A stretch of DNA of 42,527 nt from a virus, in IMG/VR virus record IMGVR_UViG_3300030102_006951, positions 1 to 42,527 of that record. One strand, written 5' to 3'. This document shows, piece by piece, positions 5,320-42,255 of the stretch; the stretch's first letter is position 1; each line of letters opens with the position of its first letter. Made by a program: the position numbers and the translations under genes. The notes below the pieces were generated by a model, which was not told where the DNA came from, searched no databases, and saw only the letters and a program-made list of their open reading frames with translations.

Positions 5320-5325
5320 TAATAT

Positions 5326-7049: not shown

Positions 7050-7379
7050 ATGTCAGATACAAATAAAGATTTGTTAGATTATAATAGAGATTATAATAAA
7101 GTAAAAGAAATCGTGAGAGAATACCTAGACATTAATGGGTGGAACTACATACCAAATTTTGGTGAGTTCAATAGTGAACAATATTCACATGTTTTAAGTA
7201 TAGGAACTGAGATTATGTTAAACCATTGGGGGATGAATAAATATGATTCTGGTGGGTTCATATCAAGTTTCATTAATAATGACTTAGAAGGTACATACGC
7301 ACAAGCAGACAGTATAAACCAAGAATGTGTTAGGTTTTATCTGATGTTAAAACATAATGTGTCATTAGTTTTAGTATAA
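7050..7379 (+). CDS. conserved small phage protein, unknown function
   Basis: 109 residues, helical. The segment GGFISSFINNDLEGTYAQAD followed by CVRFYLMLKHNV resembles a recurrent small phage protein (NNDL...AD...N..CV.FY pattern, from memory). No standard promoter directly upstream; an A-rich leader (A8) precedes the ATG. Confidence 0.83.
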   Translation: MSDTNKDLLDYNRDYNKVKEIVREYLDINGWNYIPNFGEFNSEQYSHVLSIGTEIMLNHWGMNKYDSGGFISSFINNDLEGTYAQADSINQECVRFYLMLKHNVSLVLV

Positions 7380-7433
7380 ATACTTACTTAATTAATTATT
7401 TTTTATTAAATTTGTATTATAAAATCAATTAAA

Positions 7434-7634
7434 ATGGAGAAATTAAGAGAGTTTTTAAAAGAATTTGGTACTGAATCAAATCTAAACGAAAGTAAGGAAA
7501 AAATAGAATATAATCTTAGAGAAAACCATCTAGTCACTTTTGAGAATAAATCATATTATATACCAAAAGAAAACTATTTTTATGGTGATGAAGAAGAATC
7601 TATTATTAATACTTTAAAAGAAAATTCAAAATAA
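7434..7634 (+). CDS. small acidic protein, unknown function
   Basis: 66 residues, charged and helical (EKLREFLKEFGTESN) with a YYIPKENYFYGDEEE turn. A possible -7 box TAAATTTG (7407-7414) lacks a good -33 partner, so transcription is uncertain. Not recognised. Confidence 0.75.
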   Translation: MEKLREFLKEFGTESNLNESKEKIEYNLRENHLVTFENKSYYIPKENYFYGDEEESIINTLKENSK

Positions 7635-7635
7635 A

Positions 7636-7667
7636 TTTGGAAATCTAAAAATATATTTGTAATATTG
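7636..7667 (+). promoter_or_regulatory. promoter of the hairpin RNA at 7672
   Basis: -33 TTTGG 7636-7640, 19-nt spacer, -7 TAATATTG 7660-7667. Confidence 0.83.
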
Positions 7668-7671
7668 TATT

Positions 7672-7746
7672 GAAAATAAAACGTGGGTGTGGTCGAGAAG
7701 GCACTCCAAACAGAATCCATTATAAAAAGCAGTCCACGTTTTTTTA
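7672..7746 (+). ncRNA. small RNA or leader attenuator with its own promoter
   Basis: Directly after a full promoter the transcript folds into a closing stem AAACGTGG/CCACGTTT (7679-7686 with 7734-7741) ending in T7, with an internal GGGTG/CACTC hairpin. Either a ~70-nt small RNA or an attenuator: the next CDS (7770) has no promoter of its own, so it is expressed only if this terminator is read through. Confidence 0.65.
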
Positions 7747-9592: not shown

Positions 9593-10060
9593 ATGGGATT
9601 AGATATGACATTATCAAAAAAAACTTACGTTCAGAATTGGGATTTTCACAAAGAAAAAGAAAAGCACACCATTTCAATTAAGAAAGGTGGTAAAGTACGC
9701 AAGGACATTAAATCAAAAAGAATTTCTTATATAGTAGAAGAAGTAATGTATTGGAGAAAAGCAAACGCAATACATTCTTGGTTCGTTGAGAATTGTCAAA
9801 ATGGCGTTGATGAATGTCAAGAATCATACGTAAGTGTGGAACAACTTGAAGAACTTGCAAGTTTATGTGAGGAAGTTGTACAAACAAAAAACACATCATT
9901 ACTTGAAACACAAAGTGGTTTCTTCTTTGGTAGCACAGACTACGATGAGTACTACTTTCAAGAATGTGAAGAAACTGCAAAAGTTATAAGAGAATTATTA
10001 TCAGAAGAAACACCAGAAGGTTGTAATAAAGGTTCTTTCTATTACCAAGCATCGTGGTAG
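9593..10060 (+). CDS. conserved phage protein of the MGLDM...YWRKANAIH type
   Basis: 155 residues. Starts MGLDMTLSKKTYV; the middle has YWRKANAIHSWFVENCQNGV, then a Cys-containing helix, SGFFFGSTDYDEYYFQEC and the C-terminal GSFYYQASW. This order is that of a phage family found in very different phages (from memory), whose function is unknown. The length fits the family. Own promoter 38 nt upstream. Confidence 0.9.
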   Translation: MGLDMTLSKKTYVQNWDFHKEKEKHTISIKKGGKVRKDIKSKRISYIVEEVMYWRKANAIHSWFVENCQNGVDECQESYVSVEQLEELASLCEEVVQTKNTSLLETQSGFFFGSTDYDEYYFQECEETAKVIRELLSEETPEGCNKGSFYYQASW

Positions 10061-10102
10061 AATATATAAGATACTATATCATTAACATTTAAAATATATA
10101 AT

Positions 10103-10387
10103 ATGAATTCAAAAACGGATAGCATGGGTGAAAGACTATTAAAAGGAATAATCAATTATTACGAGGATGAAGAATTCTTAAAAGCCGATGGGTTTGATGA
10201 TGCAGTCATTGGTGTAGATGAATCAACACTTAGATTGATATACTCAACAACAAAGTGCGTTGAAATATTAATAGAAAGAGATGATATGGAGTTTGATGAA
10301 GCATTAGAATACTTTGACTTTAATGTTAGGGGTGCTTATATGGGTGAGAAAACACCAATATGGTGTGAAGATATGCTTTATGAATAA
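10103..10387 (+). CDS. conserved phage protein, unknown function
   Basis: 94 residues, acidic. The block DGFDDAVIGVDESTLRLIYS, CVEILIERDDMEFDEALEYF and NVRGAYMGEKTPIWCEDM is a recurrent phage sequence (from memory). No promoter of the usual type between it and the preceding gene. A terminator/promoter hairpin follows. Confidence 0.86.
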   Translation: MNSKTDSMGERLLKGIINYYEDEEFLKADGFDDAVIGVDESTLRLIYSTTKCVEILIERDDMEFDEALEYFDFNVRGAYMGEKTPIWCEDMLYE

Positions 10388-10974: not shown

Positions 10975-11460
10975 ATGAACATATTTGTATTAGACCAAGA
11001 CCCAAGAGTATGTGCAAGATATCACAATGATAAACATGTTGTTAAAATGATTCTAGAAACTGCACAATTATTGTGCGGTGTACACCATGTTACAGAATCA
11101 AATTTAGATGTACCATATGGGTTATCACATAAAAATCATCCATGTTCTATATGGGCAAGAAAATGCCTAGAAAATTATATATGGCTTTGTGAACTAGGAA
11201 TGGAACTATCTACAGAATACACACACAGATACGGTAGAAGACACAAATCGCAAGATATTATAGAATGGTGTTTAATTAACTTACCTAACTTACCAGAATT
11301 TGGTAGAATAACAGAACAACCAAAAGCAATGCCCGATGAATGTAAAACTGATGATGTGGTAGAATCATATAGAAGATACTATATTATGGAAAAAAGGGGG
11401 TTCTGTAATTGGAAAAATAGAGAAATACCAAATTGGTATAAAATAAATTTGGATAATTAA
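10975..11460 (+). CDS. conserved phage protein of the LD.DP...HxxKH type
   Basis: 161 residues. Starts MNIFVLDQDPRVCARYHNDK with H17 and H21 followed by VVKMILETAQLL; then SHKNHPCSIWARKCLENYIW, EYTHRYGRRHKS, AMPDECK and YRRYYIMEKRGFCNWKNREI. This arrangement is a family widespread in T4-like and other myoviruses (from memory). The several invariant His, Asp and Arg suggest an enzyme, possibly a nuclease, but this is inference. The end (NLDN, stop) contains the next TTTGG. Confidence 0.9.
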   Translation: MNIFVLDQDPRVCARYHNDKHVVKMILETAQLLCGVHHVTESNLDVPYGLSHKNHPCSIWARKCLENYIWLCELGMELSTEYTHRYGRRHKSQDIIEWCLINLPNLPEFGRITEQPKAMPDECKTDDVVESYRRYYIMEKRGFCNWKNREIPNWYKINLDN

Positions 11461-11479
11461 AATATTATTCGTACATTTA
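11448..11479 (+). promoter_or_regulatory. promoter of the gene at 11506
   Basis: -33 TTTGG 11448-11452 inside the preceding CDS, 19-nt spacer, -7 TACATTTA 11472-11479. Confidence 0.86.
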
Positions 11480-11505
11480 CAATATAAACATTAAAAAAAT
11501 ATACT

Positions 11506-12294
11506 ATGAGCAGAAGAATTGATGAAATAGATTTACAATTAGGTTTAATAAGAAAAGAACTTGATACTGAATACGAATCACTTAATAAAGAACTAATAAC
11601 CATTAATGAGAATATTAGATTATTCATATCACAATACTTTGATTTCCCAATAGAGATTATTAATCTAGTTTGTGTGTCAGATTATAGCACAAAGATTGAA
11701 GTTAAATGTGATGATGGTTCAAGGAAATTTGGTTCAGATATTACAATATATCATGATAGGAGATTTAATGATAAACGTGAGTATTCAATAGGTTATTTCT
11801 CAACTGGTGTTAATGAATCATCAACACAAGACCTATACTACTTAGAATTATTAGGTAAAATATCAAAAGATTTTAGAACTAAAAAAACTTTTATTAAAGA
11901 GTTAGCTAAAGCACTAAAAACTATTAGAGGATTTACTAAAAAAACTGATGGTTTACATAGTATAGAAAGAAAATTAAAACATGAGAAATCAGAGTTAATT
12001 CAAAAAGATATAGTAAATAAGATATTATCTGATAAGGGCATTAAACTAAAAGCAAGTGTTAGAGAGTTTATTAGAGATACAGACTCTAGACAATCTTACG
12101 TTAGAGAATTAAAGATTCTTAAAAAAACTGATAACACAATCACAATACAATACCTATGTAATGATGGTTACGAAATAGATACTTACAGACAAAATATTTA
12201 TGATGCTGAACGCACACTTGTCACTTATTTTCGTAGATACGAAAACCAATGCAAAGTTAATGAAGAAGATTTAGCAAAAAGATTAGTAAGATAA
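11506..12294 (+). CDS. 262-residue coiled-coil protein, unknown function
   Basis: An N-terminal coiled-coil (about 1-45; RRIDEIDLQLGLIRKELDTE) precedes a beta-rich part (KIEVKCDDGSRKFGSDITIY). A basic helical C-terminal half follows (KTFIKELAKALKTIRGFTKK; SIERKLKHEKSEL; SVREFIRDTDSRQSYVREL). The overall charge is basic, unlike its acidic neighbours. Could bind nucleic acid, but no family is recognised. Own promoter; terminator follows. Confidence 0.86.
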   Translation: MSRRIDEIDLQLGLIRKELDTEYESLNKELITINENIRLFISQYFDFPIEIINLVCVSDYSTKIEVKCDDGSRKFGSDITIYHDRRFNDKREYSIGYFSTGVNESSTQDLYYLELLGKISKDFRTKKTFIKELAKALKTIRGFTKKTDGLHSIERKLKHEKSELIQKDIVNKILSDKGIKLKASVREFIRDTDSRQSYVRELKILKKTDNTITIQYLCNDGYEIDTYRQNIYDAERTLVTYFRRYENQCKVNEEDLAKRLVR

Positions 12295-13222: not shown

Positions 13223-13456
13223 ATGAAACTTATATTAATAGCATCTGTTAAAGATGGAGATAGGCAAGAATTAGAATCAATAGAAAACCAAAAGTTTAAC
13301 TCAGTTAATCAAATAAGAGATTCGTTAGGCTTTCCAGTAGACATATATAGCCTAACTAAATTTATGGATGCGTGTAATGATACCGATGATGATTCAGAAA
13401 AATCTGAAAGGATTAATATAGATGAGTCTTGGCTTGGTTATGTGGAATTAGAATAA
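13223..13456 (+). CDS. small acidic protein, unknown function
   Basis: 77 residues. Beta-strand start (KLILIASVKDGDRQE) then VNQIRDSLGFPVDIYSLTKF and an acidic tail. 12 nt after the preceding gene; operon member. Similar small proteins occur in phages, but no family name can be given. Confidence 0.82.
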   Translation: MKLILIASVKDGDRQELESIENQKFNSVNQIRDSLGFPVDIYSLTKFMDACNDTDDDSEKSERINIDESWLGYVELE

Positions 13457-13517
13457 AAACACATATTTTGCTTTCTTATGTGAAAAAAATGATATATATT
13501 AGTATAAAAAATATATT

Positions 13518-13805
13518 ATGAGCAAAGCACCAAAAAATTATATCACTTGGGTTTTCACCGACCACTACTTTAAAAATGGGGTGGGAAGACTTAAATTTGT
13601 AGCAACATTATTCGCAATATCCATGCCTTTTTATGCAATACCACCTGTGTTGCAAGAATATAACGAAGGGTGGATTCCACTATTACCAGTCATAGGAACT
13701 TTTATAGCAGTATTTGGATTCTTAATAGGTATAACCCTACAACCATACGGAATATATAAAAGACTGAAAAGAATGAATTGGTGGGATAGAGAAAAAAAGT
13801 TCTAA
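13518..13805 (+). CDS. two-helix membrane protein
   Basis: 95 residues. A basic start precedes two hydrophobic segments, about 26-45 (KFVATLFAISMPFYAIPPVL) and 54-75 (LLPVIGTFIAVFGFLIGITL), joined by a short acidic turn; a basic tail (YKRLKRMNWWDREKKF) should be cytoplasmic. Possibly acts at the host inner membrane. A TTTGC box (13467) and TATATTAG (13495) upstream have a 23-nt spacing, so its promoter is atypical. Confidence 0.84.
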   Translation: MSKAPKNYITWVFTDHYFKNGVGRLKFVATLFAISMPFYAIPPVLQEYNEGWIPLLPVIGTFIAVFGFLIGITLQPYGIYKRLKRMNWWDREKKF

Positions 13806-13809
13806 AATA

Positions 13810-13841
13810 TTTGGTTATATCAAAAGTAATTCCTATATTTA
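13810..13841 (+). promoter_or_regulatory. promoter of the gene at 13872
   Basis: -33 TTTGG 13810-13814, 19-nt spacer, -7 TATATTTA 13834-13841. Confidence 0.84.
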
Positions 13842-13871
13842 CAATATCAATAATTAAAACAATTAAAAATT

Positions 13872-14255
13872 ATGGGAATTTACATAAACATTACTGACAG
13901 AAGACTTACTAAAAAGAACGTAGAACTAAATGGCGAGAAAGTTAGCGTTGATTTCGCACCATTCAGCCATAAGCCATCTATCAACTATGACAATCCACCA
14001 GAGATTGAAAAAAAGATGGAACGTGCTTGGAACATGCCTGAAGATAAACAAGCAGACTATATTGTATTTGCTAAACCAAGTGATGAATACTTAGATAGCT
14101 ACCATGTATATAAAAACAACAAGAAAGGAGTCTGGTCTGATGGTTCTGGTTTCTGGTCTGGATTACATTGGGAAAATGACCTCGTAGGTACACTAAAAAA
14201 TAATGGTAGAAAATGGTTCATAGAACCAAAAGAATTACCAATCGAATTAAGATAA
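13872..14255 (+). CDS. unknown phage protein
   Basis: 127 residues. Starts MGIYINITDRRLTKKNVELN; a Trp/Gly-rich segment (KGVWSDGSGFWSGLHWENDL) lies near the end. Three small genes follow closely (14268, 14420, 14510), so it heads an operon. Not recognised. Confidence 0.86.
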   Translation: MGIYINITDRRLTKKNVELNGEKVSVDFAPFSHKPSINYDNPPEIEKKMERAWNMPEDKQADYIVFAKPSDEYLDSYHVYKNNKKGVWSDGSGFWSGLHWENDLVGTLKNNGRKWFIEPKELPIELR

Positions 14256-15537: not shown

Positions 15538-15942
15538 GGAAAGCCATTTTAATGGCTTCTAAGACACTATCTTTTTGTCTTTGTCATTGTACCAGTTATA
15601 TGTACTTTTTGTACCTATACGCACACGTTATGACTATTTTAGGGTTTGTGGGTAATCGTGGTAAATGGTGGGATAGAGTGGGTTTTTGTGTAAAACGCTT
15701 AAAATGGAACTTATGAATATATACTAATACCACATAATAAGTTAAAGACTTAAAGATATCCTGTATATTTTTCTGTCATTTTTTTTAGGACAATCCCTTC
15801 CTAGCCTCTAAAAAACGCATTTTTTAAAGTTTGCACATATAGGATTATATGTACCTATTTAGTAATCTATTGTACCGCCCCTTAAATACCAGACCGCCCC
15901 ACAATTTACCACCAGATAATTCTGGTTCATGCGCATCCTAAA

Positions 15943-15962
15943 ATATACACAATTGTGTACAT
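15943..15962 (+). repeat. palindrome variant, copy 3
   Basis: ATATACACAATTGTGTACAT: perfect TACACAATTGTGTA core, one arm mismatch relative to copies 1 and 2. Confidence 0.6.
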
Positions 15963-16059
15963 GTGCGCGAGGGCTTTACGCTGAGCTTATGAACCATGTG
16001 AAAATATATAAGATTATATATAATGTGATAGGTATAAACCACAAAGCCCCAGAGCAAAT

Positions 16060-16104
16060 GAATGCTTTGGGTGCGTGAAATCTAGTCCACTATTTGTGGG
16101 TAGA
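16060..16104 (-). ncRNA. putative minus-strand small RNA, divergent member of the GAGTAGACTCC family
   Basis: Downstream of the minus promoter at 16110-16141 the transcript has a CCAC/GTGG hairpin followed by ACTAGATTTCACGCAC, which parallels the hairpin-GAGTAGACTCC-nnCACGC order of the other members; the plus-strand 9-mer GTGCGTGAA is shared with the copy at 16325. A hairpin with an 8-bp stem (16049-16070) lies at the 3' side, without a clear U-tract. 3' end uncertain. Confidence 0.4.
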
Positions 16105-16109
16105 TGGGT

Positions 16110-16141
16110 GCAATATACGAAATATATTTTAGGTAACCAAA
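16110..16141 (-). promoter_or_regulatory. minus-strand promoter in the non-coding island
   Basis: Read on the minus strand: -33 TTTGG (complement of 16137-16141), 19-nt spacer, -7 TATATTGC (complement of 16110-16117). Confidence 0.72.
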
Positions 16142-16167
16142 TATAAATTAAAAAACTTTAATTTCAG

Positions 16168-16230
16168 GCTAAAAAAATACCCTATAAAATATAGGGCAAT
16201 AGTATTCCGCTGGGCGTTCTAAGAACACCA
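16168..16230 (-). ncRNA. minus-strand small RNA with two hairpins
   Basis: A full minus promoter (16234-16265) is followed by hairpin GGTGTTC/GAACGCC (complement of 16213-16229, loop TTA, one G-U) and then the terminator CCCTATA/TATAGGG with T7. No ORF. A compact ~60-nt small RNA; target unknown. Confidence 0.72.
16171..16196 (-). terminator. terminator of the minus-strand small RNA
   Basis: Stem CCCTATA/TATAGGG (16180-16186 with 16190-16196), minus-strand T7 at 16177-16171. Confidence 0.82.
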
Positions 16231-16233
16231 ATA

Positions 16234-16265
16234 CAAAGGTACAAAAAGACATTTAGAATTCCAAA
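16234..16265 (-). promoter_or_regulatory. minus-strand promoter of the small RNA at 16168-16230
   Basis: Minus strand: -33 TTTGG (16265-16261), 19-nt spacer, -7 TACCTTTG (16241-16234). Confidence 0.8.
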
Positions 16266-16311
16266 TAAAATGGTATATAAATCATGATAAAAATTCAGGC
16301 TTAATTTAGGG

Positions 16312-16380
16312 GTAAAAAAGTAAGTGCGTGAAGGAGTCTACTCTCTCGGTTTTATTTCAGAACCAGACCTGTATTAACTA
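16312..16380 (-). ncRNA. small RNA of the GAGTAGACTCC family, copy A
   Basis: Minus transcript from the promoter at 16386-16417: a GGTT/AACC hairpin, then GAGTAGACTCC (complement of 16333-16343), TTCACGCAC and a T6 tract (16319-16314). No ORF. Same layout as the copies at 17.7, 31.7 and 42.2 kb. Confidence 0.62.
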
Positions 16381-16385
16381 CACTA

Positions 16386-16417
16386 CTAATATCGGAATAA
16401 TAAATGACAATACCAAA
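16386..16417 (-). promoter_or_regulatory. minus-strand promoter of small RNA copy A
   Basis: Minus strand: -33 TTTGG (16417-16413), 19-nt spacer, -7 GATATTAG (16393-16386). Confidence 0.75.
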
Positions 16418-16548
16418 TATATAAGACTATATTTTAAAAAAAGATTTTATAGTATATTATATAGATAAATTTTTATGACTGTATATACTGATTTTACAGA
16501 TGGTTCAGGATTTAATATAAAAAAAAATGAAAAATATATTGTATTATA

Positions 16549-16580
16549 TTTGGATATATGGATTTAATTGCTTTACTTTG
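16549..16580 (+). promoter_or_regulatory. promoter of the DUF932-like gene
   Basis: -33 TTTGG 16549-16553, 19-nt spacer, -7 TTACTTTG 16573-16580 (T instead of A at position 2). Confidence 0.7.
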
Positions 16581-16636
16581 TACCGTTCGATTTAAGAACA
16601 GATTTTTATTGTCAAACCATTTAAATGATTATTATG

Positions 16637-29001: not shown

Positions 29002-29190
29002 ATGCAAGATTTATTTGAAACATATGAAACGCTTCCAAAGGAAGTACAAGAAATTATCAACGACTTTAGTGAGGCTGATAAAAACTACAATAATTGTCAA
29101 GACTTAGTTGAGGCACTAGAACAGGTAGGTTATACCTGTGAATATGGACTAGACGCAACACCATACGACTTGAAAAAACTTAAAAAATAA
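29002..29190 (+). CDS. small acidic helical protein, unknown function
   Basis: 62 residues. LPKEVQEIINDFSEADKNYN and CQDLVEALEQVGYTCEYGLD are helical; the latter (LE..GYTC.YGLD..P..L) resembles short phage proteins (from memory). Leaderless. Its TAA overlaps the next ATG by one base. Confidence 0.82.
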   Translation: MQDLFETYETLPKEVQEIINDFSEADKNYNNCQDLVEALEQVGYTCEYGLDATPYDLKKLKK

Positions 29191-29477
29191 TGTCAAAAGA
29201 TTTAGAGACATACCACGTAGAAGTTAACATTAGAAATGAGTATGGATATATACCAAAAGATGAATTTGGCAATCCAGTACCATCAATAAAGTTTGAGAAA
29301 ACAGTGAACCCACTATTCTTAGATACAATGCTAAAAAGACTTTACAAAGACTTTAAGGCAATCGTACCCAAAGAACATGATATTAATATAGAAGTTTACC
29401 TATCTAATACTGTCAGTGGTACATGGATGAACATGGCTTCATATTATGGTAGTGAAGAAAGATTTGTTAAACATTAA
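29190..29477 (+). CDS. unknown phage protein
   Basis: 95 residues, beta-rich start (ETYHVEVNIRNEYGYIPKDE). Coupled to the preceding gene through TAATG. Not recognised. Confidence 0.83.
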   Translation: MSKDLETYHVEVNIRNEYGYIPKDEFGNPVPSIKFEKTVNPLFLDTMLKRLYKDFKAIVPKEHDINIEVYLSNTVSGTWMNMASYYGSEERFVKH

Positions 29478-29519: not shown

Positions 29520-29726
29520 ATGAAATTTACTATTGAAATAAAGGGTCTCGGAACACTTAAAGATATATTAGATAATATGGATGAGATTAAATCATTCATA
29601 GAGAATAAGATTGAAGAGGGTGAAGAGGGGATTTTAGATGAGGCCAAAGAAATTGGATTTCCTATAGGGGGACATCCACTTCAACAAACGCTTTTCTTAA
29701 CAACAAGTTTAGGAAAAAAAGTTTAA
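29520..29726 (+). CDS. small acidic protein, unknown function
   Basis: 68 residues. KFTIEIKGLGTLKDILDNMD is beta-helix, then EEGEEGILDEAKEIGF and a Gly/Pro turn. Leaderless. Not recognised. Confidence 0.8.
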   Translation: MKFTIEIKGLGTLKDILDNMDEIKSFIENKIEEGEEGILDEAKEIGFPIGGHPLQQTLFLTTSLGKKV

Positions 29727-29902: not shown

Positions 29903-29934
29903 TTTGGTAATTAAAATTAAATTACTTATCTTTA
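29903..29934 (+). promoter_or_regulatory. promoter of the large structured RNA
   Basis: -33 TTTGG 29903-29907, 19-nt spacer, -7 TATCTTTA 29927-29934. Confidence 0.86.
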
Positions 29935-29939
29935 CAAGA

Positions 29940-30550
29940 GTTATTTGAAATATGCATAAGATGAGTTTGCCTATAAGGTTTATAGGACACCTCTAAACAT
30001 CGATTGCCTCTGGACGAGCTACTAGTAGTAATGCGTAACCTACTTGTAACCAACTGTATTAAGGGTACCCTTGGCACAGTACTACTCTCGAGTAGAAAAA
30101 GTTACAACCGCAAAGCCTCTTCACACTATCTAACGGTGCAAGCTACATAATCTGATGTTAACGTTAACCTATAAATACGGTAAACTTATCTAGCTCGGGT
30201 CCGAGAGTAAAAATAGAGCGGCTATGTACAAGCTGCGGGACCAAAGGAACGTATCAAGAGTTCTAGCTGTGGACGAAGCCGAAGAGGCCATTAATTTCGC
30301 TACAGCAGCGCAATAGAGCTCTTGGTCTTCTCTTTTAGAATTTATTCTATAATGCATATTTAGTACTAATTTAAATTAATACTAATGAAAAACTAAAATA
30401 TAGTTGGAGAGACCACATTGCCATTAGCGCTTGCTCCATAAGAGACGGGCCACCTGAAGCCCATAAATTCAGGTCATGATTATAAGTTGGGGAGTGGTTA
30501 CCCCGTGATTGATGAGGGAAGGCTTCGCTGTTGCAGCGGGGCCTTTTTTT
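29940..30550 (+). ncRNA. large (~610 nt) structured non-coding RNA
   Basis: Bounded by its own promoter and a strong terminator, with no credible ORF and raised G+C. Helices read directly: CCTATAA/TTATAGG (29970-29986); TTGTAAC/GTTACAA (30044-30050 with 30101-30107), enclosing CTACT/AGTAG (30082-30095); CTCG/CGAG (30194-30205); GCGGCT/AGCTGC (30218-30236). A long arm 30239-30327 is built from GACCAA/TTGGTC, AGAGTTCT/AGAGCTCT, GCTGT/ACAGC, CGAA/TTCG and GCC/GGC. Further helices are TAGAA/TTCTA (30336-30349), ACCTGAA/TTCAGGT (30452-30474) and GGGG/CCCC (30489-30504). TATGCAT/ATGCATA (29951-29957 with 30352-30358) could close the domain, and AGAGGC in the arm loop can pair with GCCTCT at 30006 or 30115 (pseudoknot). 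Size and phage context recall the ornate large RNAs GOLLD and ROOL, but no specific motif of either, of RNase P RNA, of tmRNA or of group I/II introns was recognised. Confidence 0.78.
30521..30550 (+). terminator. terminator of the large RNA
   Basis: 10-bp stem GGCTTCGCTG/CAGCGGGGCC (30521-30530 with 30534-30543, two G-U), loop TTG, T7. Confidence 0.92.
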
Positions 30551-30581
30551 GTGTCCCACTTTAAAATGCTAACTATAGTAT

Positions 30582-30613
30582 GTTGTATGATTAAATGTAA
30601 TACCGTATATTTG
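30582..30613 (+). promoter_or_regulatory. weak promoter of the gene at 30639
   Basis: -7 TATATTTG 30606-30613 with GTTGT at the -33 position (30582-30586) and the usual 19-nt spacer. Confidence 0.55.
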
Positions 30614-30638
30614 TACTGTAACATTAAAACAATATATT

Positions 30639-30920
30639 ATGAAATGCACAAGTAAGAATTTAGAAAGAGTATTTAACTTCATTATTAATAACCACGTAGA
30701 TAATAATGGTGGTGGGGCTGATTTTGCAATGTTTGATGATGAAAGTGAATTAGTTGGGGCTGTACAATATAGTCTAGAACAATTAGATGAATGTTTATTT
30801 ATTTGCAACAGTTGTCATGAACATTTTCCTAGAGAAGAAATGGACTTTGACGTTGACAATGACCAAGACTTATGCAAGAATTGTAACTACCAAAGTTATA
30901 ATGAGGGACCATACGGGTAA
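30639..30920 (+). CDS. small protein with a C-terminal zinc ribbon
   Basis: 93 residues. N-terminal part ERVFNFIINNHVDNNGGGAD then DDESELVGAVQYSLEQLDEC; the C-terminal half has CNSCHEHFPREEM and CKNC, i.e. two CxxC pairs typical of a zinc ribbon. Function unknown. Confidence 0.84.
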   Translation: MKCTSKNLERVFNFIINNHVDNNGGGADFAMFDDESELVGAVQYSLEQLDECLFICNSCHEHFPREEMDFDVDNDQDLCKNCNYQSYNEGPYG

Positions 30921-31848: not shown

Positions 31849-31880
31849 TTTGGTAGTTTAAAATAAAGTTTGTATCTTTA
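31849..31880 (+). promoter_or_regulatory. promoter of the gene at 31909
   Basis: -33 TTTGG 31849-31853, 19-nt spacer, -7 TATCTTTA 31873-31880. Confidence 0.86.
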
Positions 31881-31908
31881 CACCATCGTTAAATTAAAAC
31901 TAAAAACT

Positions 31909-32376
31909 ATGAGTAAAGAAAGAAATTTAGAATTATTAGAAAAGCAAATATTAAATGATGCCAATAACGGTGACACCACAGTACTTGCAGAGATACTTGA
32001 ATCATTAGATGAGGAATATATATTTAATTCATTAAGTGATGTTAACCAAGAGAGAACTAACTTCCAACAGTTAAAGGGTGGTGAACACATCGTTGCTTTG
32101 GTTAATACTAATGGAGTTTCTAATTCCTATAACACACCTGAAGATATAGATATTGAAAAGGGTACTATATTAAAATGTCCAAATACTGGGACTCGAATGG
32201 GTGATGTTTTTACTACTTTAGTTAGTGGTAATGCAGTTAAACATTGTAGAGGTTATAATAAGGGTGAAAAACAAGCACAAAAGCATGGTGATATTATTGG
32301 TTTAAGTGGTGGTTATAACTCTGCACCTTATTCATTGGGTTGTATTGATTTAAGAGTTTGGAAAATAATAGATTAA
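31909..32376 (+). CDS. two-part phage protein, unknown function
   Basis: 155 residues from the ATG at 31909 (the upstream extension begins in the -7 box). The first ~45 residues, LEKQILNDANNGDTTVLAEI and DEEYIFNSLSD, resemble a phage module usually found as a separate small protein (from memory). The C-terminal ~100 residues are Gly/Thr-rich with two Cys (KCPNTGTRMGDVFTTLVSGN; GGY..APYSLGCIDLRVWKI). It may be a fusion. Confidence 0.84.
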   Translation: MSKERNLELLEKQILNDANNGDTTVLAEILESLDEEYIFNSLSDVNQERTNFQQLKGGEHIVALVNTNGVSNSYNTPEDIDIEKGTILKCPNTGTRMGDVFTTLVSGNAVKHCRGYNKGEKQAQKHGDIIGLSGGYNSAPYSLGCIDLRVWKIID

Positions 32377-37488: not shown

Positions 37489-37523
37489 CACTAACATTAA
37501 AACAATCACTTAAAACATCAAAC

Positions 37524-37625
37524 ATGAGAAGAAACTTAGACATCAAATTCGCGTTAACATCAGTAACATTATTTATGGGGTTTATTATTTATAATATTAT
37601 AATACACGGAATCCCAAATATTTAA
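37524..37625 (+). CDS. 33-residue membrane peptide, GFI.YNII family
   Basis: Basic start (MRRNLDIKFAL), then the membrane segment TSVTLFMGFIIYNIIIHGIP. The core GFIIYNIIIHGI aligns with GFIAYNIITYGV of the minus-strand peptide at 41622-41732, so the two are homologues. Each has its own promoter and is followed directly by a structured RNA. Small hydrophobic peptides of toxin-antitoxin or lysis-control systems look like this, but the role is unknown. Confidence 0.72.
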   Translation: MRRNLDIKFALTSVTLFMGFIIYNIIIHGIPNI

Positions 37626-37640
37626 CAACAACAAAGAAAC
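37622..37640 (+). repeat. partial copy of the TTTAACAACAACAA element
   Basis: TTAACAACAACAAAGAAAC at the stop codon of the peptide gene, directly before the structured RNA; see the full copies at 37785, 39138 and 41243. Confidence 0.5.
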
Positions 37641-37756
37641 GGGTACCTTAATTGCTAATGTAAGCCATTAGAGGGATTGAGGAGGGGGTTAACTCTATAC
37701 AGTTGCAAATGTTATAGAGGGGTTGGAGCCTAATTAACTCCAACCTTTCTGCCCGT
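37639..37756 (+). ncRNA. multibranched RNA downstream of the membrane peptide
   Basis: A closing helix ACGGG/CCCGT (37639-37643 with 37752-37756) encloses three perfect hairpins: CTAATG/CATTAG (37655-37671), CTCTATA/TATAGAG (37693-37719) and GGTTGGAG/CTCCAACC (37721-37745). Transcribed with the 33-residue peptide; no ORF. No known family recognised. Confidence 0.68.
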
Positions 37757-37784
37757 ACGATTACATAAACTTAAAATATCTAAA

Positions 37785-37820
37785 TCATAGTAAGTTTAGG
37801 TTTAACAACAACAACGAAAC
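37785..37820 (+). repeat. 3' UTR element, copy 1
   Basis: TCATAGTAAGTT, then GTTTAACAACAACAACGAAA, immediately before a terminator. The TCATAG is in frame with a short gene-end remnant without a start (fossil stop). Confidence 0.68.
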
Positions 37821-37848
37821 ACTCTAATTATTTAGGGTGTTTTTTTTT
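37819..37848 (+). terminator. rho-independent terminator
   Basis: Stem ACACTCTAA/TTAGGGTGT (37819-37827 with 37832-37840), loop TTAT, T8. Confidence 0.88.
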
Positions 37849-37857
37849 ATCTAAAAA

Positions 37858-40731: not shown

Positions 40732-41013
40732 ATGAAAACGACAAATGCAATAGAAAATGCTTTAAAAAATAAAGCATCAAACGAAATAAGTGATATAGTA
40801 GACAATTTCATCAATGACATAAAGAATAAGGTTGTAGATAAATACAAATCAAACGCATACTCTTATGACTTGGGAAACGATACAAAAGATATACATATAC
40901 AATCTAATCATTTGAAAGGAGTGCTAGTACGAATGTTAAGTGAAAAACACCTTAATAGAATGGTAGAATGTAAGTCTGCTGAGTTAATAAAGAAATTAGA
41001 TTTAGAGTTATAA
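40732..41013 (+). CDS. helical protein, unknown function
   Basis: 93 residues. KTTNAIENALKNKASNEISD, IVDNFINDIKNKVVDKYKSN and HLNRMVECKSAELIKKL; mostly helical. 14 nt after the preceding gene. Not recognised. Confidence 0.82.
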   Translation: MKTTNAIENALKNKASNEISDIVDNFINDIKNKVVDKYKSNAYSYDLGNDTKDIHIQSNHLKGVLVRMLSEKHLNRMVECKSAELIKKLDLEL

Positions 41014-41040
41014 TATAAAAACAAAACAAAGATAACTAAT

Positions 41041-41115
41041 ATGGAAAAGGATAGGTATAAATATTTTAGTTTAATATTGAGTTATATGATTAAAAACCAA
41101 AACGAAGATGAGTAA
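41041..41115 (+). CDS. 24-residue peptide
   Basis: MEKDRYKYFSLILSYMIKNQ with an acidic end (NEDE). Its end overlaps the start of the next gene (ATGAGTAA), which favours translation coupling; otherwise weak support. Confidence 0.45.
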   Translation: MEKDRYKYFSLILSYMIKNQNEDE

Positions 41116-41248
41116 AGAAAATACAAAAACATTTGAATGTATAGAGCATGGAGAAAAGTTTCTTATTAATGCTAAAGATATTAATGAAGCACAAGAAGTC
41201 GCCCAAATGTATGGTGGTAGTGTAATAAAAGAAGTTAAGAGTTCATAG
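41108..41248 (+). CDS. 46-residue protein, unknown function
   Basis: MSKENTKTFECIEHGEKFLI followed by NAKDINEAQEVAQMYGGSVI; a beta-beta-alpha pattern typical of small phage proteins. The end TCATAG begins the 3' UTR element at 41243. Confidence 0.7.
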   Translation: MSKENTKTFECIEHGEKFLINAKDINEAQEVAQMYGGSVIKEVKSS

Positions 41249-41277
41249 TAAGTTGGTGGTTTAACAACAACGAAAGG
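41243..41277 (+). repeat. 3' UTR element, copy 3
   Basis: TCATAGTAAGTTGGTGG then TTTAACAACAACGAAAGG; contains the TAG stop of the gene at 41108 and leads into a terminator. Confidence 0.7.
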
Positions 41278-41305
41278 TATTCCAGATTATTGGAATACCT
41301 TTTTT
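41273..41305 (+). terminator. rho-independent terminator
   Basis: Stem AAGGTATTCC/GGAATACCTT (41274-41283 with 41292-41301), T6. Confidence 0.9.
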
Positions 41306-41308
41306 AGT

Positions 41309-41328
41309 ATATACACTTTTGTGTATAT
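41309..41328 (+). repeat. palindrome variant, copy 5
   Basis: ATATACACTTTTGTGTATAT, between the converging + and - terminators. Confidence 0.58.
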
Positions 41329-41343
41329 TTGGTTATATAGTAA

Positions 41344-41376
41344 ATAAAAAAAAGGACACCAATGTTGATGTCCTTC
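41344..41376 (-). terminator. minus-strand terminator
   Basis: Stem AAGGACA/TGTCCTT (41353-41359 with 41370-41376), with the minus-strand T8 at 41354-41347. Ends the minus transcript from 41792. Confidence 0.85.
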
Positions 41377-41386
41377 TTAATTTAAT

Positions 41387-41494
41387 TTGAGGCATAAATT
41401 TTACCAATTATTGATGCAAAATCTAATTTAAGTTTTGGCTTCCTACTTAACTAGTATTTTATAGGGTTTATTATACACCTTTCAGCACCTCAAA
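41387..41494 (-). ncRNA. second structured domain of the minus-strand RNA
   Basis: Helix TTTGAGG/CCTCAAA (41387-41393 with 41488-41494) closes a ~110-nt A/T-rich domain between the pseudoknot domain and the terminator. Internal structure unclear; no ORF. Confidence 0.5.
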
Positions 41495-41503
41495 AATATA
41501 AAA

Positions 41504-41613
41504 AAGGAAGTGTGATTGGTATCTCTCATACGCTATTTAGGTATTTCTTTCAATACCCACCGTGATACCTGATAGTTTGTAGTGCGTATCCCTTAAAGTT
41601 TACACACTTCCTT
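41504..41613 (-). ncRNA. minus-strand pseudoknotted RNA downstream of the membrane peptide
   Basis: An 11-bp perfect closing helix AAGGAAGTGTG/CACACTTCCTT (41504-41514 with 41603-41613) encloses two crossing helices: GGTATC/GATACC (41518-41523 with 41564-41569) and ATACGC/GCGTAT (41528-41533 with 41584-41589), a pseudoknot, plus the nested hairpin GGTATT/AATACC (41540-41557). No ORF. It follows the 36-residue peptide by about 10 nt on the same transcript. No known riboswitch or ribozyme family recognised. Confidence 0.7.
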
Positions 41614-41621
41614 ATTTAACC

Positions 41622-41732
41622 TTAAACTCCGTAAGTTATTATATTATAAGCTATAAAGCCAATAAAAGCCAAAACACTTAATAATAAACTAACTACTCTA
41701 AAGTTAATGTGGTATTTTAAAATAAATCTCAT
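41622..41732 (-). CDS. 36-residue membrane peptide, GFI.YNII family
   Basis: The only well-supported minus-strand gene. MRFILKYHINFRVV is basic, then LLLSVLAFIGFIAYNIITYG spans the membrane. The GFIAYNIITYGV end aligns with the + strand peptide at 37524-37625. It has a consensus promoter (41761-41792) and an A/T-rich leader, and is followed by structured RNA. Confidence 0.72.
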   Translation of the reverse strand: MRFILKYHINFRVVSLLLSVLAFIGFIAYNIITYGV

Positions 41733-41760
41733 AGTATATAATTTTAATAATTTAACAATA

Positions 41761-41792
41761 CAAATATACAATATAATATTTAATTATCCAAA
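41761..41792 (-). promoter_or_regulatory. minus-strand promoter of the peptide-RNA unit
   Basis: Minus strand: -33 TTTGG (41792-41788), 19-nt spacer, -7 TATATTTG (41768-41761). Confidence 0.86.
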
Positions 41793-41845
41793 CATTTATA
41801 TATAAATATTTTTATAAAAAAAAATTAAAAAAAAACTAAAAAAAA

Positions 41846-41877
41846 TTTGGTAGTTTAAATTATTATCCGTAATATTG
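41846..41877 (+). promoter_or_regulatory. promoter of the gene at 41911
   Basis: -33 TTTGG 41846-41850, 19-nt spacer, -7 TAATATTG 41870-41877. Divergent from the minus promoter at 41761. Confidence 0.85.
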
Positions 41878-41910
41878 TACCAAGTTAAACAATTAAAAAA
41901 ATATATAACT

Positions 41911-42045
41911 ATGAAAAGAGCGACAAAAAGAAGATTAGAAAACACAGTTTGTGGAATTTTTAAATCAGTAATGGTATTACAAGCAACTATGTTAATTTGG
42001 GCAGTTGGTTTTATGTTAGTGAAATTATTTGAAACAACTTTCTAA
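41911..42045 (+). CDS. 44-residue membrane peptide
   Basis: A basic start (MKRATKRRLENTVCGIFK) precedes one membrane span (VLQATMLIWAVGFMLVKLF). Own promoter and terminator. Not related in sequence to the GFI.YNII peptides. Confidence 0.74.
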   Translation: MKRATKRRLENTVCGIFKSVMVLQATMLIWAVGFMLVKLFETTF

Positions 42046-42064
42046 AATCAATTAAATTAAATTT

Positions 42065-42095
42065 AAGGGGTGCAGAAATGTATCCCTTTTTTTTT
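42065..42095 (+). terminator. terminator with GAAA tetraloop
   Basis: 10-bp stem AAGGGGTGCA/TGTATCCCTT (42065-42074 with 42079-42088, two G-U), loop GAAA, T9; identical in core to the one at 42479. Confidence 0.9.
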
Positions 42096-42104
42096 GCCTA
42101 AAAA

Positions 42105-42136
42105 TTTGGTAGTTTAAATTATTATCCCGATATTTG
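42105..42136 (+). promoter_or_regulatory. promoter of small RNA copy D
   Basis: -33 TTTGG 42105-42109, 19-nt spacer, -7 GATATTTG 42129-42136. Confidence 0.78.
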
Positions 42137-42141
42137 TATCG

Positions 42142-42210
42142 TTGATGAGTTAATCGAAACGGGCTGAGTAATCAGGAGAGTAGACTCCAACACGCATATA
42201 TATAAAATAT
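42142..42210 (+). ncRNA. RNA of the GAGTAGACTCC family, copy D (+ strand)
   Basis: After the promoter at 42105: AAACGGG, hairpin CTGA-GTAA-TCAG (42164-42175), GAGTAGACTCC (42178-42188), AACACGC. It shares 29 nt with copy C and then the 24-nt repeat with the gene at 28744. No terminator before the next promoter (42224), so it may be the distal leader of the gene at 42284 or a processed RNA. Confidence 0.6.
42187..42210 (+). repeat. 24-nt direct repeat, copy 2 (non-coding)
   Basis: Same 24 nt as 28768-28791; here the reading frame used in the gene is closed by TAG on the left and TAA on the right. Confidence 0.75.
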
Positions 42211-42223
42211 TCATAAAAATAAA

Positions 42224-42255
42224 TTTGGTAGTTTAAATATTATATTGTATATTTG
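42224..42255 (+). promoter_or_regulatory. promoter of the gene at 42284
   Basis: -33 TTTGG 42224-42228, 19-nt spacer, -7 TATATTTG 42248-42255. Confidence 0.87.

Follow-up and report, generated by a model that had tools for sequence, protein, structure and literature searches.

A probable stand-alone gene for a large structured RNA with a boxA-like leader in a phage genome, and its relation to an undescribed RNA family

What kind of gene occupies the interval between the genes at 29520-29726 and 30639-30920 of the window, the 42,527-nt stretch analyzed here, which is the opening 42.5 kb of a virus record 158 kb long (IMGVR_UViG_3300030102_006951)? An earlier note, written from the letters alone, had proposed a large, structured non-coding RNA that stands alone, with a promoter and a terminator of its own, and this proposal is well supported by the sequence and the predicted fold. 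We consider it likely that 29935-30552 is a stand-alone gene for a structured non-coding RNA of ~615 nt, which belongs to an undescribed family in large phages of inferred Bacteroidota hosts, is made with the help of boxA antitermination and acts in trans. Gene anatomy, family and leader are supported at the level of sequence, and transcription, antitermination, trans action and function are what we infer from there.

Anatomy and coding capacity of the locus

By sequence, positions 29903-30556 make up a self-contained RNA gene that consists of a promoter, a body without a credible ORF and a terminator:

29903-29934, + strand: Bacteroidota-type promoter (TTTGGTA...TTATCTTTA) with -33 element TTTG(GTA), 20-nt spacer and -7 element TAtcTTTa
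30518-30552, + strand: intrinsic terminator, identified from sequence and fold, with a stem of at least 12 bp, loop TTG and a run of 7 T

The pattern TTTG-N18-22-TANNTTTG occurs at 20 sites in the window, as compared to 2.8 expected (0/100 shuffles), and the promoter at 29903-29934, already recognized in the earlier note, departs from it in the last base only. As the window promoters follow this Bacteroidota pattern, the phage probably has a Bacteroidota host. The promoter type of the RNA (TTTGGTA...TA.CTTT) also precedes the RNAs of relatives described below. A distinct, near-identical promoter, TTTGGAaatgTAAATATAATAytGTATATTTG, is present in ~10 copies between 28127 and 42255 of the window, and the two types perhaps represent two temporal classes. 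The terminator is present as the earlier note had stated, the stem being longer than the 10 bp given there.

The + strand contains no ORF of at least 60 aa between 29726 and 30639, in agreement with the earlier reading of ~610 nt without a credible ORF. The longest sense ORFs in the RNA region have 48 and 39 aa (starting at 30004 and 30031, both ending at 30150) and 30 aa (30224-30316). As these frames start with ATG, one of them might be translated, making the locus a small-protein gene, which we regard as extremely improbable: the 30-aa ORF has neither a tblastn homologue in any locus nor a PHROG assignment and falls within the strongest hairpin of the RNA, and relatives share nucleotide motifs instead. 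The G+C content, described as raised in the earlier note, is 0.41 over 30001-30500 vs ~0.29 for the genome, and the RNA region is the sole ORF-free stretch of at least 380 nt with raised G+C in the window.

Other parts of the window are also poor in ORFs. Two long regions of this kind lie at 15716-16624, which contains the perfect palindrome TACACAATTGTGTAC (ACACAAATGTGTA-like sites are found elsewhere in these phages), and at 41013-42244. Possibly a second small RNA is encoded at 37500-37850, an ORF-free structured stretch (z = -4.7) in which TTTAACAACAACAAmGAAAC is directly repeated (~37622 and ~37800) and which has a terminator near 37840.

Predicted fold

The 611-nt RNA has a minimum free energy of -178.6 kcal/mol, corresponding to z = -3.5 (z = -3.8 in a second estimate). 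Values from -2 to -5 proved common when 63 gaps without ORFs were surveyed in related phages, and we therefore did not use the folding energy as main evidence. Base-pair probabilities identify near-certain long-range helices of 9, 13 and 9 bp, and the following elements (all + strand, mean pair probabilities in brackets) are predicted:

29949-30360: RNA core with closing helix 29949-29957/30352-30360 (AATATGCAT/ATGCATATT; 0.93)
29959-30191: domain I with 13-bp closing helix 29959-29971/30179-30191 (0.99), containing the family motif described below
29978-29986/30168-30176 (0.98) and 29996-30004/30150-30159 (0.81): inner helices of domain I
30244-30334: long arm of domain II, 30244-30265/30314-30334 (0.88) and 30266-30277/30296-30306 (0.99)
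30406-30504: domain III, 30406-30423/30488-30504 (0.90), with hairpins 30429-30450 (0.99) and 30452-30474 (0.97)
29939-30510: possible end-to-end helix, boxA leader 29939-29944 with pre-terminator 30505-30510 (0.59-0.70)

The end-to-end closing helix that the earlier note had placed at 29951/30352 was thus recovered as the helix closing the core, its 90-nt composite arm reappeared as the arm of domain II, and the strong structure built of multiple helices claimed there is borne out by four helices with mean probabilities of 0.93-0.99. A pairing equivalent to that of leader and pre-terminator is predicted in the relatives L004 (0.32) and L102 (0.55), and the plan of domain I, i.e. leader, short linker, long closing helix and motifs inside, recurs in both. 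The folding z of the relatives' RNAs is modest (L004 -1.1, L102 -0.6). Some ORF-free gaps in other phage contigs have far lower folding energies, with z = -5.8 to -11.2 (L056:13265-13736, L016:442-765 and 9883-10249, L046:1870-2294 and 11329-11648).

The structure might also be a by-product of raised G+C in a decaying, functionless remnant of an old tRNA cluster or a dead gene. Relatives do have tRNA genes at this place and the window phage has none, and many gaps have a comparable fold z, but intact promoter, leader and terminator would be unexpected in decaying DNA of an A+T-rich phage, as would hierarchical helices at probabilities >0.9, so that we regard a remnant as quite improbable and keep to the reading as a stand-alone RNA gene.

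Relation to RNAs of related phages

Related contigs were reached via protein neighbours, and three phage contigs carry mutually homologous RNAs:

L004 (IMGVR 3300016474_000543): RNA of ~450 nt with own promoter and terminator
L102 (IMGVR 3300032288_004603): RNA of ~450 nt with own promoter and terminator
L120/L121 (3300028557_000060, 3300028581_000022): third homologous RNA

Homology of the L004 and L102 RNAs is indicated by nhmmer (E 1.8e-11) and by alignment, and the L120 RNA is homologous to both (0/400 shuffles vs either). All three have ACAGCCTCT repeats and GCGnAACTCT...GACGAG units in common, and in L004 and L102 the RNA sits between tRNA-Arg(tct) and tRNA-Leu(taa). The 3' block AACGCTTTGTTCAGCGGAAAATAAAG is identical in L004 and L102 and absent from the window and L120, and is thus not a block of the whole family. 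In the 11-bp helix that closes the domain in L004 and L102 11/11 pairs are kept; one has a compensatory change (A-U to C-G) and four have changes on one side only. When the partner was slid by one column, pairing fell to 59%, and no slid control exceeded 59%. With two sequences, for which a column-shuffle control has no power, this covariation is suggestive and not proof. The corresponding helix of L120 is ambiguous. Homologues and a covarying closing helix, for which the earlier note had proposed to look, do exist, the helix in a comparison of L004 and L102; the usable homologous sequences number only three, and the window RNA is too divergent to be aligned with them.

We next consider if the window RNA belongs to this family. 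It is flanked by 29190-29477 (upstream) and 31870-32376, homologues of which flank the L004 RNA (L096 6881 and 8977). Like the family, it has a promoter followed by a boxA-like leader, a long closing helix and an intrinsic terminator. Moreover, it contains a sequence motif of the family:

30131-30154, + strand: family motif TAACGGTGCAAGCTACAtaaTCTG, matching L004 in 16/17 nt and matching the motif profile

Specifically, TAACGGTGCAAGCTACA of the window matches TAACGGTGCAAGATACA of L004 in 16/17 nt (0/1000 shuffles). The repeat motif of the family, roughly TAACnnnGmnrAGATACAGCCTCTG, was converted into a profile of 24 columns from the L004, L102 and L120 repeats, excluding the window, and run over ~135 loci; its best match outside the training set was position 30131 of the window (21.2 bits, with the AGCC part lost), in a test that was not blind as the motif had been noticed in the window before the profile was built. 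The next best match, at L139 13199 (20.8 bits), is coding and was rejected; that chance matches come so close to the window score speaks against membership. At 13282-14166 the same contig encodes alanine-rich repeat proteins (GCTGCTGCT tracts) in paralogous genes arranged in tandem.

Similarity between the window RNA and L004 is limited to promoter, leader and the one 24-nt motif, the remaining body not being alignable. The window RNA may therefore be a real structured RNA, but an orphan that arose independently at a similar place and is unrelated to L004, L102 and L120. This is in line with the lack of significant similarity past the leader and the one motif, with direct comparisons to L102, L120 and L030, which gave similarity at chance level as judged by shuffles, and with the opposite order of two motifs shared with L004 (ATGCGTAAC and TAACGG..., a shared 9-mer among them). 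However, the flanking genes are the same as those of L004, the boxA leader is otherwise almost restricted to the RNA/tRNA cluster, and the best non-training motif match of ~135 loci falls inside the window RNA. On balance, we consider an orphan RNA unlikely and regard the window RNA as probably a divergent member of the L004/L102/L120 family.

The gene environment also bears on whether the RNA is a cis-acting leader, i.e. a riboswitch or attenuator, of the downstream gene at 30639. Its position upstream of this gene and its end in an intrinsic terminator would fit such a role, but the interval that separates terminator and gene (30600-30639) contains a TATATTTG promoter core with a leader as on other window genes, L004 lacks the downstream gene at that place, 600 nt is very long for an attenuator, and no Rfam riboswitch matches. 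A cis-acting leader is thus highly improbable.

Exact scans of viral contigs yielded few further candidates. GTGATTGATGAGGGAAGGC gave no match and GCTTTGTTCAGCGGAAAA two; of 22 stretches with TAACGGTGCAAGNYACA L004 alone is real, the rest appearing to be coding, and among 7 matches to GACGAGATACAGCCTCT L004 and L102 alone are real. A scan of genome contigs with GCTTTGTTCAGCGGAAAATA gave 3 matches, and the two inspected (L110, L111) were due to chance. DNA searches of isolate phages revealed nothing past promoter-like similarity, and the family motif was not found in the inspected gaps of L133/L137, L118, L126, L135 and L145. Position 7190-7692 of the related phage L030 holds an ORF-free RNA candidate of ~500 nt from promoter to terminator (z = -2.2), which has no sequence similarity to the family. 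In L102:17158-17222 and L120:14550-14620 we observed a second conserved structured element of ~60 nt (AAAYCATAAAGTGCCACGACTTGCCG...TCGGTATGRTTT), whose columns are 91% identical on average and whose stem shows a compensatory change (C-G/U-A); it is joined to the large RNA in L102 and forms a separate boxA-led transcript in L120.

The boxA-like leader and comparison with known RNA classes

At the 5' end of the predicted transcript is GTTATTTGAAATAT, which nearly copies the boxA found in rRNA operons of the host and occurs once in the 158-kb genome:

29940-29954, + strand: boxA-like leader GTTATTTGAAATATG (compare GTTC[AT]TTGA[AC]ATATTG of Bacteroidota rRNA operons)

As compared to GTTCwTTGAmATATTG it has one substitution (GTTA for GTTC) and a shorter 3' end. 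GTTNNTTGAAATAT is found once in the window vs 0.04 expected, and the wider pattern GTTNNTTGA[AC]ATAT once in 158 kb. Downstream of the L004 promoter at 5325 the identical 15 nt are present, and GTTCTTTGA/GTTCTTTAA follow promoters at L004 5495, L102 16892 and 17095, and L120 14712. On the bacterial side, an rRNA operon of Maribacter contains GTTCATTGAAATATTG, 195 nt upstream of 16S, as well as GTTCATTGACATATTGG, and one further genome has 14 copies, many of them lying ~80 nt from the end of a contig, where collapsed rRNA operons would be expected to place them; we take these elements to be rRNA boxA. The reversed control pattern gave no matches. The exact pattern was present in only 5/30 genomes of that class, and the consensus is therefore looser than the pattern searched.

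Promoter-like sites number 538 in the related loci; a boxA-like element lies within 50 nt of 10 of them, 8 of which are located at the RNA/tRNA cluster (L135 being counted by its shared GGCATATGGTGTAGTGG tRNA-like stretch), indicating that the leader marks these untranslated transcripts. The earlier note had missed both the rRNA-like leader and the association with tRNA clusters that relatives show. Long non-coding DNA with raised G+C also harbours atypical tRNA-like genes (L122:10560-10852, L133:12614-13286, L137:12589-13118), in which halves such as AGTCAGG...CAGGTTCGAATCCTGTCCTGACTAC enclose inserts or long arms; ARAGORN assigned no clear anticodon to those of L122 and L133.

In rRNA antitermination boxA binds NusB/NusE. 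Host-type RNA polymerase would start at the promoter at 29903, and the rRNA-type boxA at the 5' end of the transcript may recruit the host Nus antitermination complex, allowing the untranslated structured transcript to be finished without Rho termination until the intrinsic terminator ends transcription at 30552. The product would then adopt a fold of nested domains, each closed by long-range helices, and might act in trans during infection as a stable RNA or RNP. The rRNA-like boxA predicts NusB/NusE dependence and rRNA-like abundance.

When all Rfam 15 models were run on the window, as the earlier note had suggested, none reached its gathering score, and GOLLD, ROOL, OLE, tmRNA and RNase P did not match the window RNA even at E 10. 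The best sub-threshold hit, to rli56 (E 0.059; 26 bits vs a cut-off of 47 bits), was dismissed as chance. Neither ARAGORN nor Rfam detected a tmRNA or tRNA in the window RNA, and the record contains no tRNA genes. The rest of the 158-kb record has no Rfam match, the three matches from the joint search being tRNAs of the relative L096. The RNA regions of L004 and L102 match nothing in Rfam except tRNA, and L004 gave no ROOL or GOLLD match at E 5. The earlier suggestion of "a new member of, or a new class beside" the large phage RNAs is thus supported in its second part, and membership in GOLLD or ROOL is not. The best reading of the sequence data is a new RNA family within a known kind, comparable to GOLLD and ROOL but outside them.

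Two other roles were considered and dropped, a CsrA sponge (ANGGA loops) and ToxI-like repeats, as the respective motifs are not kept in L102. Short motif units in tandem precede a terminator in L004 and L102, which recalls the RNA repeats of type III toxin-antitoxin systems (e.g. the ToxI mimic of phage PhiTE, PMC3475682), but a tandem array is absent from the window, no toxin gene was recognized, and the domains are closed by long-range helices. The leaders of rRNA operons likewise place a boxA at the 5' end of an untranslated structured transcript, with GTTNNTTGAAATAT in both, but here a phage gene with a single RNA product is concerned, and the boxA core has one mismatch. The window RNA also does not match the OLE covariance model.

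The closest functional analogues are GOLLD and ROOL, phage RNAs that are often found near tRNA islands and form RNA-only cages; for GOLLD, ribosome binding in pull-downs has been reported (PMC12286853). ROOL is likewise a large, highly structured, stand-alone phage RNA (PMC12286853), but its covariance models do not match the window RNA, and it is characterized by a homo-octameric nanocage. GOLLD is likewise phage-encoded, tRNA-island-linked and multi-domain (PMC12286853), but many of its members exceed 800 nt, as compared to ~615 nt, and its model with a universally conserved 3' region is not matched. The setting near a tRNA island applies to L004 and L102, and the window genome has no tRNA genes. 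In view of the tRNA islands in relatives and the rRNA-like leader, and as GOLLD and ROOL form cages and GOLLD may bind ribosomes, a translation-related role or a self-assembling scaffold similar to GOLLD/ROOL appears most likely by analogy. Few classes of large ornate RNAs are known, and the present locus adds a new family, tied to tRNA clusters, in a group of large phages. More speculatively, and rather doubtfully, these giant phage RNAs might form a class that is widespread and evolves fast, borrowing host rRNA boxA antitermination and accumulating like rRNA during infection, and serving as scaffolds or ribosome-directed factors, with GOLLD and ROOL as other branches. If the GOLLD and ROOL genes also carry a boxA, this would suggest that giant phage RNAs are synthesized in a common way.
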